DNA of 38,040 nt from NCBI GenBank assembly GCA_017421085.1, contig JAFQMU010000227.1:1-38040 (forward strand), given 5' to 3'. This DNA is from Desulfovibrionaceae bacterium. GTDB taxonomy: Bacteria > Desulfobacterota > Desulfovibrionia > Desulfovibrionales > Desulfovibrionaceae. Position 1 is the first letter of the stretch; each line of letters opens with the position of its first letter. This document shows positions 8,099-11,322 of this stretch, in pieces. A program made the position numbers and the translations under genes. Below the pieces are notes generated by a model. The model was not told where the DNA came from. It was given only the letters and a program-made list of their open reading frames with translations, and searched no databases.

Positions 8099-8416
8099 CT
8101 AGAGCTTAATTTCAACATCAACGCCGGCGGGCAGCGAAAGCCTGCCGAGCGCGTCAACGGTTTGCTGGGTAGGCTCAAGAATATCCATCAAACGCTTATG
8201 AATGCGCATTTCGAACTGCTCACGTGATTTCTTATCCACATGCACGCTGCGGTTTACAGTATACTTGTGGATATTGGTGGGCAGAGGGATGGGGCCGGCA
8301 ACGCCTGCACCCGTGTTGCGGGCCGTATCCACAATTTCGGCTACAGCCTTGTCTAAAATGCGGTAATCGTAAGCCTTGAGCTTAATCCTGATACGATCAC
8401 TGCTTACTGTTGTCAT
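8099..8416 (-). CDS. rpsJ: 30S ribosomal protein S10
   Basis: S10 is a 30S head protein that also acts as NusE in transcription antitermination. The 105-residue product starts [20 protein letters not shown] and has the conserved [31 protein letters not shown] block. An in-frame ATG at 8467 would add 17 residues (beginning [10 protein letters not shown]) that S10 proteins lack. The internal ATG at 8416 has a clear GGAGAGAAG Shine-Dalgarno sequence just upstream and gives the standard length, so it is chosen. First gene of the operon, preceded by a long leader. Confidence 0.97.
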
Positions 8417-8957
8417 CTCTTCTCTCCGTATCTCAAAAGACGCTTTTGGCCTTGCCTGCCGAACCATTTCGGCGGCCAGTATTCCTCACCAGGGCGAAAC
8501 CTGAATGGCACTACCGGTCCAGGTTTCTTTAACCGGGGAACTTCGCCTCAAACAGCTCACTGCGAGTGGGCTACAGAAGAATGATCGTTTTGGGCAGCCA
8601 GGCTGACCAAAACAGGACCTCTCCCTTCACAGCCTCTTTCATCACAGCACTTTCAACAAAGCTCCATGCGAAGGTATATCCTACGTTTGACAGCCTGACT
8701 TTAAAAGGTCAGGTGGTCCGCAGGGGTCACCAAGGGGCGGAATACTCCGCCAACTTCACTACCTTACAGCCCGGCACATCAAGCCTTGGCGGGCTGGAAC
8801 GGCGCACAAACAAATGCGGCAACGCCTGCAATTTCAAAACAACGCTACCGTTTGAGCGGCGCGCTGTCTGCGCTTGGAGGGTTGCACCCTCCCTCCCCAG
8901 CCGTTACGGGGAGTTCCCAACCTTGAGTTATGGCTGATAGGCCATCCTACAAGACCA
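8417..8957 (-). ncRNA. Long structured 5' leader of the S10 operon
   Basis: About 540 nt separate the predicted transcription start from rpsJ, with no convincing gene inside. Several perfect stem-loops are visible. They include 8454-8476 (six pairs with a 4-base loop, plus outer pairs across a bulge), 8587-8613 (GTTTTGG pairing with CCAAAAC plus an inner CAGC/GCTG), 8736-8751 (GGCGGA with TCCGCC) and the 7-bp GGAGGGT/ACCCTCC hairpin at about 8877-8893. In E. coli the S10 leader is the target of L4 control, so an autoregulatory role is a reasonable inference. I see no match to the E. coli leader. A 23-codon frame (8571-8642, two Trp codons) lies inside but lacks a good ribosome site. Confidence 0.5.
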
Positions 8958-8964
8958 GAGCGAC

Positions 8965-8993
8965 TTAATACCCCTGTCAGCCAATCAAGTCAA
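8965..8993 (-). promoter_or_regulatory. sigma70-type promoter of the S10 operon
   Basis: On the minus strand TTGACT (8993-8988) is followed after exactly 17 bases by TATTAA (8970-8965). This is a near-consensus -35/-10 pair with optimal spacing. Transcription should start near 8957-8958 and run into the rpsJ leader. Strong promoters are expected for ribosomal protein operons. This is the best promoter match I found in the window. Confidence 0.75.
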
Positions 8994-9375
8994 GTACTTT
9001 TTGCAAATTTCCATTAAACTTTATTTTGCCGCACTGCTTCCAGCAAATCCATTACAATGAAAATTTTAAATCAAATTTGTCAGTAATTCCAGCTCATCCC
9101 CAAATTTGAAGGACAGGTTGCTGCAAAAAGCTGTAGACATTCGCCCGGAAATATGTTTGTTATGCCCTGCCGGGCAACCGGCAAGGGCCGATCTGAAACT
9201 GTTTCCCTAAGCGGTGCATAAGGCAGTTTCAGACCAGGCCCTTTTTATTGGGCCATAAAAAATTCCCATCATTAATATCATTTGGTTGTTCCATAGGGCT
9301 GAACCGCCGATTTCCTTTTACTTCACTCTGGTCAAATTGCAAAATCTGCGCTAAATTATATTGTGGAGTATATTT
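8994..9375. other. Divergent intergenic region with three consecutive stem-loops
   Basis: This gap between the S10 promoter (leftward) and the DsbD-like gene (rightward) has no convincing ORF. Three hairpins lie in a row. The first is 9165-9187 (CCCTGCCGG pairing with CCGGCA-A-GGG around a GCAA tetraloop). The second is 9192-9233 (10-bp TCTGAAACTG/CAGTTTCAGA stem with a 22-base loop). The third is 9237-9254 (GGCCC/GGGCC with a T-rich loop). Their direction is unclear. They could form a small RNA, a 5' leader element of the DsbD-like gene, or remnants of a terminator. The rest of the gap is A/T-rich and unassigned. Confidence 0.4.
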
Positions 9376-11322
9376 GTGAATAAAAATCATCGGCATATTC
9401 GTCTGACAGGCGCAGCTCACCGGCTTGCTTCATTGCTGCTGCTGATCTGTCTTGCCTGCGGTTCAGCCCAGGCACAGGGCATTGTTTTTTCCGGTCAGAA
9501 GGCAAACGCCCTTCCGGTGCAGTTCAGTCATTCAGTCTATCGCCTTGACTCGGATCCGCAGGCCCGGCTGATCGCGCTTGAGTTTACGCCTGTTCACGGT
9601 CACTACGCCTACGCCAATGATCCGGGGGAAGCGGCAGGCCGCCCCACCAGCGTGAAACCGATTTTCAAAACCGCTCCGGACCTCCCCCCCCCGGATTACA
9701 AACTCATTTACCCCCTGGGAAAGCAAATTGCGGATATTTATTCCGGAGGAAAACAGGTAAATGTGTATGACGGCCCCACTTCTATTTTTATAGCTGTTTA
9801 CCCGGCTAAAGAAAATGGCCTTTCAGACGCTGTGCCCAGCCGGGAAGACCCCGCCGCCTCGGCCGACTCTACAAACGGGATATTCACCAATGGCAGGCTT
9901 GATGTTGAGTTGGAAGTTCAGATGCTCATCTGTTCCCTCACCAACTGCACCCCGGTAAAAAAACTCATTCCTGTAAAGCTTGCCGCCGATGCCTCTCTGG
10001 CCTCGGCTGAGGCTCAGCCTTGGTGGCCTGAATATGCCGAAGCCCTCAAAATAATTCAAAACACCATGCCTGCCCTGAGCCCGGTGTACGACTCGCCCGG
10101 GCTGGAAATTGAAAGCTTGGGAAAGGCCGTGTTTTTCGGGCTGATTGCAGGTTTAATCTTAAATTTCATGCCCTGCGTGTTCCCTGTGGTCAGCCTGAAG
10201 CTGCTTTCATTCATCATAGCCCTGGGTCAGCCCGATGCCGAGAAGCGCATCCGCGCCTTCCGCCATCAGAATCTGATGTTTTCGCTGGGGGTGCTTGTCT
10301 GGTTTTCACTGCTGTCAGCCCTGCTTTCGGCCATGGACTTGCTGTGGGGGCAGATTTTTCAAAGTCAGATAATGGTTCTGGTCATTCTGCTGCTGGTGTT
10401 TGCCCTTACCCTCAGCCTGTTTGGGCTGTTCATGCTTCCTTCATTCGCCTTCAGAGAAAAACAGGGCCAAATGAGCAAACGCAGCGCCTTTATTACCGGA
10501 ATGCTCTCCACCTGCCTCGCCACCCCGTGCAGCGGTCCCTTGCTCGGCGGGGTGCTGGGCTGGAGTTTCAACCAGTCGCAGCCCACTCTGGGGATTGTTT
10601 TTCTGGCGGTAGGCCTGGGCATGGCCAGCCCCTATCTTTTTCTGGCGCTCTTCCCCAAAATGGGGCGCTATTTTCCCAAGCCGGGTCCCTGGCTCGCCAG
10701 ACTGGAAGTATCCCTGGGCTTCTTTTTGCTGCTTACCTGCGTCTACCTGTTCAGCCTGCTCACCAGCGAAATGAAAATGGGGGCCGGGCTGGGGCTGGCT
10801 CTGCTCTTCTGTCTGGGCCTGCTCTGGGGCAGAAGGCAGAATGCTCACGGAATGAACATTATTTTCTACTGGCGCTCACTTCTGGCCTGTGTTCTGGTTT
10901 TGGCAGCATTTATGGTCATCTGGAACCATGTGCTCTTCAGAGAAAGAGAAAATCGCTGGGTTCCCTATTCAGAAGAACTGTTCATGCGCGAAAGCTCACA
11001 AAAAAACATCGTAATTGACTTTACCGCTGACTGGTGCCCCAACTGCAAGCTGCTTGAGCGCACGGTTTTCACTGAAGAGCGGATGGAAGAATGGGAAAAT
11101 AAATATAATGTACTGTTCATGCAGGTTGACCTGACCCATGACAACCCGGCGGGTTACGCCCTGCTCTCGGCCCTGAACAGCAGCAGCATTCCTGTTGTAG
11201 CTCTTTTCCCCCGGCAGGCAGACATCGACGCCCCCCTTTCTCCCATTGTTTTGCGCGATCTGTTCGGCCCGGCCCGCCTGGAAGAGGCTGCGGAAAAGGC
11301 CTGGTCAAACCCGGACGGATAA
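9376..11322 (+). CDS. DsbD-family thiol:disulfide interchange protein
   Basis: DsbD-family proteins carry electrons from cytoplasmic thioredoxin across the inner membrane to periplasmic disulfide reductases. From a GTG at 9376 (GGAG 7 bases upstream; the TTG at 9361 has none) the protein has 648 residues. It has a signal peptide (about 1-34), a periplasmic domain with a Cys186/Cys191 pair (ICSLTNC), and a multi-helix membrane domain (about 250-520) with the redox cysteines Cys267 (NFMPCVFP) and Cys385 (ATPCSGPLLGG). A C-terminal thioredoxin-like domain has the CPNC motif (Cys554/Cys557, ADWCPNCKLLE). The three-domain design matches DsbD/ScsB. Which of these it is, and its periplasmic partner, cannot be told; no partner gene is adjacent. 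Confidence 0.9.
   Translation: MNKNHRHIRLTGAAHRLASLLLLICLACGSAQAQGIVFSGQKANALPVQFSHSVYRLDSDPQARLIALEFTPVHGHYAYANDPGEAAGRPTSVKPIFKTAPDLPPPDYKLIYPLGKQIADIYSGGKQVNVYDGPTSIFIAVYPAKENGLSDAVPSREDPAASADSTNGIFTNGRLDVELEVQMLICSLTNCTPVKKLIPVKLAADASLASAEAQPWWPEYAEALKIIQNTMPALSPVYDSPGLEIESLGKAVFFGLIAGLILNFMPCVFPVVSLKLLSFIIALGQPDAEKRIRAFRHQNLMFSLGVLVWFSLLSALLSAMDLLWGQIFQSQIMVLVILLLVFALTLSLFGLFMLPSFAFREKQGQMSKRSAFITGMLSTCLATPCSGPLLGGVLGWSFNQSQPTLGIVFLAVGLGMASPYLFLALFPKMGRYFPKPGPWLARLEVSLGFFLLLTCVYLFSLLTSEMKMGAGLGLALLFCLGLLWGRRQNAHGMNIIFYWRSLLACVLVLAAFMVIWNHVLFRERENRWVPYSEELFMRESSQKNIVIDFTADWCPNCKLLERTVFTEERMEEWENKYNVLFMQVDLTHDNPAGYALLSALNSSSIPVVALFPRQADIDAPLSPIVLRDLFGPARLEEAAEKAWSNPDG

Follow-up and report, generated by a model that had tools for sequence, protein, structure and literature searches.

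The S10 operon encodes approximately eleven ribosomal proteins. Most of what is known of its control, a textbook case, comes from Escherichia coli. The E. coli S10 leader is roughly 170 nt long, and its attenuator site lies close to rpsJ, in a place similar to that of the U tract described below. As set out in the accessible part of PMC10931766, uL4 controls the E. coli operon via this leader at the level of both transcription and translation, and L4 acts together with NusA at the attenuator hairpin.

Other S10 leaders have been proposed from comparative data. The S10 r-leader of Firmicutes and Clostridia is named, in the portion of PMC7247131 available to us, as a motif predicted ahead of ribosomal protein genes. 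The rpsJ motif RLC-47-1 of Peptostreptococcaceae is presented in the accessible sections of PMC11109978 as a candidate ribosomal leader occurring in three genera of one Firmicutes family. In Table 1 of PMC7247131, within the same available portion, the L20 leader is the only entry from Deltaproteobacteria, and no rpsJ leader is given for this lineage. The accessible part of a paper on Oleidesulfovibrio alaskensis (PMC11124144) makes no mention of rpsJ or S10. Searches of the openly licensed literature listed no rpsJ or S10-operon leader RNA for the lineage.

Operon, leader and promoter in the window

The window, i.e. the whole stretch of DNA that was analysed, is 38,040 nt long and derives from a bacterium of the Desulfovibrionaceae. 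The S10 operon and the elements preceding it are located on the minus strand:

8988–8993, minus strand: -35 hexamer TTGACT, read from the sequence and from its conservation in relatives
8965–8970, minus strand: -10 hexamer TATTAA, read from the sequence, at an exact spacing of 17 nt
8417–8958, minus strand: structured S10 operon leader of about 540 nt, recognized by fold stability and same-genus homology
8447–8478, minus strand: 3' hairpin (UGGCC/GGCCA enclosing GCCGAA/UUCGGC), from the fold of the window
8435–8440, minus strand: U-rich tract UCUUUU, 19–24 nt before the rpsJ start
8424–8429, minus strand: Shine-Dalgarno sequence ACGGAG of rpsJ, read from the sequence
8099–8416, minus strand: rpsJ, encoding ribosomal protein S10, the gene that opens the S10 operon (Pfam PF00338, E 4.3e-36)

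The L3, L4 and L2 genes of the operon were likewise matched by Pfam, and the gene order, taken from the list of open reading frames with names assigned partly by reading, continues across the S10 cluster and the spc cluster as far as about position 195. From the position of the promoter, we infer that transcription starts near 8958; since rpsJ begins at 8416, the leader would extend from about 8417 to 8958. Its predicted fold (-225.7 kcal/mol) is more stable than the mean of dinucleotide shuffles (-196.7 kcal/mol; z -4.36), and none of 100 shuffles was as stable. The 123-aa open reading frame opposite the leader had no Pfam match, an upstream open reading frame common to the leaders was not found among the 10 compared, and the frames overlapping the leader do not look like genes. 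Searching Rfam 15 at gathering score gave no match in the window or in 10 relatives; with E values up to 5, three matches were obtained on the leader, all at chance level, and these were discarded.

The promoter (TTGACT-17-TATTAA) has nine of the twelve consensus bases. It is not included in a stricter promoter scan of the window, and TTGACT-N16-18-TAT is expected to occur 0.23 times in the window by chance. Conservation was assessed on 60 non-redundant leaders, of which L169 was left out, its upstream sequence being too short. TTGAC-N-17-TA was present in all 59 testable leaders (0.81 expected from shuffles), a count made on relatives that are not independent of one another, and was located 119–220 nt upstream of the core motif in each of the 59. 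Such a fixed spacing and place across genera would not be expected by chance. We judge the promoter to be real because it is conserved in relatives; alone, the window's copy is unremarkable.

These results bear on two claims of the first-pass annotation. It had described a long gene-free leader before rpsJ, and the length, the strong fold and the character of the overlapping frames all agree with this. It had also described a near-consensus promoter with 17-nt spacing: promoter and spacing stand, whereas 'near-consensus' was generous for nine matches in twelve.

Between the S10 promoter and a divergent dsbD-like gene (9361–11322), the plus strand carries a long hairpin, AAGGGCCGATCTGAAACTG ... 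CAGTTTCAGACCAGGCCCTTTTT, at 9183–9246. By eye it resembles either a terminator or an element of the dsbD-like gene's leader.

Distribution among relatives and operon layout

S10 was located in 113 of 119 Desulfovibrionaceae genomes, the other six having no rpsJ match. For 90 of these 113 we extracted the upstream DNA, which was too short in four cases. A leader from the same genus (L003) aligned with that of the window over about 590 nt with 80.5% identity; outside the genus, BLAST aligned islands only. Alignment of 29 leaders with MAFFT revealed a chain of common motifs extending from the promoter to the ribosome-binding site.

A covariance model, R1, was built from 14 leaders, none of which came from the window's genus. 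R1 matched the leader of the window with E=1.9e-9. In the family it matched 42/119 genomes from 14 of 44 genera, with one copy per genome, and all 42 matches were upstream of rpsJ and on the same strand as rpsJ. These were the same 42 genomes in which the motif had already been located upstream of rpsJ. Weak members of the family were missed by R1 because Infernal's stricter filters were used. Wider samples, which overlap one another, gave matches in 106/297 genomes (order), 88/247 (class) and 7/247 (phylum), all within Desulfovibrionaceae; in the order-wide sample, the one genome with two R1 matches has 4% contamination. As far as sampled, the leader RNA family appears to be confined to Desulfovibrionaceae.

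An exact pattern search of named genomes yielded 49 stretches, mostly from Desulfovibrio, Mailhella, a Bilophila bin, Desulfovibrio sp. A2 and a Halodesulfovibrio bin; the Desulfovibrio matches include D. piger ATCC 29098, where the motif lies before rpsJ. S10 was found within 900 nt downstream in 40 of the 49, and in six the end of the stored DNA was reached first. Three matches (Kushneria, Pseudomonas luteola and an alphaproteobacterial bin) were rejected as unrelated chance matches.

The family has two operon layouts: fusA, tuf and rpsJ are tightly joined, or the S10 operon stands apart and has a promoter and the RNA to itself. The existence of two layouts was noticed at loci L055–L072, at about -1.2 kb. 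The RNA was found at none of the 14 loci with adjacent tuf and at none of the 17 with fusA within 300 nt (0/31 together, of 90 loci). Among 54 separated loci, 42 had the clear form and 11 had divergent forms called by eye; L077 was left uncalled, and L047 (partly masked) and four loci that were too short were not counted. The sequence further upstream was read in 11 genomes with adjacent tuf; there fusA, tuf and rpsJ lie close together, and no leader was found before tuf. Since none of the 31 coupled loci carries the RNA and the packed loci are leaderless, the promoter and the RNA go with the separated S10 operon.

Secondary structure of the leader RNA

Comparison of the leaders pointed to the following helices, listed in the order in which they would be transcribed:

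8893–8913, minus strand: hairpin A (CUCCCC...GGGGAG), position conserved in the 29-leader alignment
8876–8892, minus strand: hairpin B (GGAGGGU-GCA-ACCCUCC), from pairing and covariation in a 21-sequence subset
8811–8835, minus strand: hairpin P1 (GAAAUUGCAGGCGUUGCCGCAUUUG), which has a strand in common with P2 and is weaker here than in relatives
8817–8829, minus strand: 5' strand of helix P2, GCAGG-C-GUUGCCG, from the cognate-partner test and pair types
8761–8803, minus strand: hairpin P4, GCC-GUUC-CAGCCC...GGGCUG-UAA-GGU, from covariation
8720–8732, minus strand: 3' strand of helix P2, UGGUGAC-C-CCUGC, from the cognate-partner test and pair types
8694–8713, minus strand: hairpin P6, CCUGAC...GUCAGG, 3' of the conserved GGACCACCUG, both motifs conserved by eye

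P2 is a long-range helix of up to 17 pairs, formed by GCAGGCGUUACCAAAUG with CAUUUGGUGACCCUGC, in which the partner lies about 60–120 nt downstream in most leaders; it closes a domain containing P4. In the cognate-partner test with 42 leaders, from which the divergent L037, six loci of genus g20 and the loci of g35 were left out, cognate P2 strands had a mean energy of -18.5 kcal/mol, compared with -14.8 kcal/mol for permuted partners (z -10.0, 0/20000 permutations). With one leader per genus (14 leaders) z was -4.75, again with 0/20000 permutations. Variable positions of P2 contain up to five pair types; position 13, for example, has AU 33, GC 6, CG 6, GU 6 and UA 1 in 60 leaders. The best partner, with rows read by eye, was at the expected site in 55/60 leaders, the exceptions being L008, L038, L125, L143 and L169. 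The apical stem of P4 covaries as well (z -9.6, 0/5000 permutations; 50 of 60 leaders testable), and its internal loop is mostly invariant.

A model alignment of 62 sequences (five of 67 sources, L027, L028, L029, L053 and L054, had no model match) was used to count compensatory changes. For P2 plus P4, 90.1% of cells were paired and 13/24 pairs were changed on both sides, with 59 both-side-changed cells compared to 13.9 in shuffles; this alignment was made to fit P1 and P4 and not P2, and it misplaces some groups. Sliding the partners by 1–3 columns lowered the pairing to 30–58%. The predicted secondary structure of the leader is supported by covariation via P2 and P4.

Of the smaller elements, hairpin B was 99% paired in a 21-sequence subset of relatives, with 5/9 pairs changed on both sides, and hairpin A was 100% paired but invariant in the same subset. 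P6 and GGACCACCUG were both detected in 51/60 leaders by a loose search, some of them not at the proper place.

By eye, genera g20 and g35 have shorter or divergent forms of the leader. The P2 strands of g20 are TTTGCAGGCTT and GCCTGCAAA, and those of L049 are TTTGCAGGTA and TACCTGCAAA. The GCCUGCA strand of L027 and L039 has two potential partners, a UGCAGGC copy upstream of it and another downstream. The g20 leaders L027, L028, L029, L031, L039 and L049 share the shorter form, with 7–8 U in 8 bases at about -26 before rpsJ, ahead of the ribosome-binding site.

P1 consists of GACAU...AUGUC around GGCGU...AUGCC. In the 62-sequence alignment, which is fitted to P1, 98.5% of its cells were paired, and three pairs were changed on both sides as against 0.1 in shuffles. 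The cognate-partner test gave z -2.6 for the outer arms with all leaders and -1.1 per genus (2894/20000 permutations as good), and z -0.95 and -0.17, respectively, for the inner arms. The test is weak because P1 hardly varies. In the window's own genus P1 is weakened.

Two conserved but incompatible helices are a hallmark of a switch. Since P1, kept in nearly all leaders, and P2 both require one strand, the RNA probably switches between two conformations, and we infer that P1 and P2 are alternative states of one leader. With P1 nearly invariant and its cognate test weak, the switch reading rests more on conservation than on covariation. A local hairpin, GGUGACCCUGCGGGACC, was considered as the partner state of P1 and dropped; by eye its GGG arm varies.

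Near the 3' end, the leaders are rich in U at -25 to -19 before the start codon (0.44–0.65 per position in 66 leaders, less on both flanks), compared with 0.06–0.39 at control loci without the RNA (18 kept of 25); in many leaders the tract is short. In many relatives the tract follows a stable hairpin (mean z -1.1). An intrinsic terminator at a common position was not found, the predictions, obtained in 24/42 leaders, being scattered. Nor did we find a conserved partner for the Shine-Dalgarno sequence at a position common to the leaders. As candidate partners, the pyrimidine tract (z +0.39) and a local hairpin (z +0.44) were negative, and pairing of the P4 5' strand with the Shine-Dalgarno region (z -2.2, 65/5000) was too weak to claim. 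A perfect or near-perfect anti-Shine-Dalgarno sequence (UUGCUCCGUU-like) was seen about -126 to -140 before rpsJ in the Desulfovibrio leaders L025, L030, L097, L098, L099, L104 and L157, and is absent from that place in most other leaders.

Interpretation and comparison with known systems

The locus is probably a two-state autoregulatory leader. We read it as the 5' untranslated leader of the S10 operon, transcribed from its own promoter, in which P1 and P2 would provide two states and the operon would repress itself via excess product; we estimate the probability of this reading at roughly 0.68. Excess product of the operon would bind the P2/P4 domain and bias the choice between the P1 and P2 states. 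This choice would alter how RNA polymerase pauses or terminates at the 3' hairpin and U tract, or else how rpsJ is translated, with the outcome that the operon is repressed. The most likely ligand is L4, suggested only by the E. coli precedent. S8, which the first-pass annotation had also offered as a sensed protein, found no support here. Its proposal of a new type of long leader before the S10 operon fared better, the leader being conserved, covarying, absent from Rfam and provided with its own promoter. Likewise, the conserved structure that it had suggested looking for among relatives was found, in the covarying P2 and P4 and in the 42 family genomes matched by R1.

A wider variant, which we regard as unlikely, is a large bistable sensor of more than one input, for example free ribosomal protein together with the status of transcription or of ribosome assembly. 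Such a sensor would have arisen with the promoter when the S10 operon left the str operon in Desulfovibrionaceae, and would represent a class of its own and not the copy of an rRNA site.

Several results weigh against the autoregulatory reading: the near-invariance of P1 and its weakening in the window's genus, the scattered terminator predictions and short U tracts, and the failure to find a conserved Shine-Dalgarno partner or significant 23S rRNA mimicry. For the last of these we compared 42 leaders, by sequence only, with the readable part of the 23S rRNA of one relative, and no consistent local alignment indicative of 23S rRNA mimicry was clearly above shuffles. For most leaders the best score fell inside or close to the range given by its 30 shuffles. 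Leaders L010–L013 of genus g38 scored 31 (shuffle maxima 25–27), at a place not common to other genera. A recurring short match, CTGGACGGCAGGGAAG, to one 23S site was rejected: its score of 27 falls within the shuffle maxima (25–32), and it is absent in several genera.

Also unlikely is a constitutive leader, whose structure would protect the transcript or aid Nus-factor antitermination without sensing anything. S10 is NusE, and both the length and high stability of the RNA and the length of the S10 operon would suit such a role. However, boxA-like sequences occur in 4/60 leaders, compared with 2.8 expected, and a covarying long-range pairing combined with an alternative hairpin exceeds the needs of stability.

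Similarly doubtful, and slightly more so, is a riboswitch-like leader sensing a small molecule, an ion or an alarmone instead of a ribosomal protein. The mutually exclusive, conserved P1 and P2 fit this explanation, as does the mostly invariant internal loop of P4. Metabolite riboswitches usually recur ahead of several genes, whereas this RNA is found only before rpsJ, in one copy per genome.

We give very little weight to a free-standing RNA gene that lies before rpsJ by happenstance and acts elsewhere. Its size and complexity resemble those of ornate stand-alone RNAs and it has its own promoter, but in the family sample it never occurs away from rpsJ, it is absent where rpsJ is coupled to fusA/tuf, and its conserved features reach the ribosome-binding site without a common terminator. 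Chance hairpins in an otherwise ordinary G+C-rich intergenic region would agree with the promoter score of the window, which alone is no better than in chance scans. This reading is already contradicted, to the point of near exclusion, by the covariation of P2 and P4 and by conservation over 14 genera.

The Desulfovibrionaceae S10 leader RNA is a real, apparently undescribed family of unusually large size. Were the S10 operon of Desulfovibrio, Mailhella and Bilophila controlled through a much larger and differently built leader, this would suggest a reinvention of that control, and would supply a large new RNA-protein (or RNA-ligand) system for study. The tie between the leader and the separation of the operon makes a question in the evolution of ribosome regulation testable.

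Among described systems, the L4-regulated S10 leader of E. coli and other gammaproteobacteria also stands before rpsJ and the S10 operon and is structured, and in both a hairpin and a U-rich tract lie a short way upstream of rpsJ. The Desulfovibrionaceae leader differs in being about three times longer, in having a long-range helix that competes with a hairpin, and in belonging to a different lineage; the two are set apart by description only. The S10 r-leader of Firmicutes and Clostridia is an S10 ribosomal leader too, from a different phylum, and is likened here by its description in the accessible portion of PMC7247131 only. RLC-47-1, as described in the available sections of PMC11109978, resembles the present leader in its place before rpsJ and in having been found by comparison only, a likeness of descriptions. 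For the 20 ribosomal leader candidates in the portion of PMC7247131 at hand, the evidence is of the same kind as for the Desulfovibrionaceae leader, namely covariation and a constant position before ribosomal protein genes.
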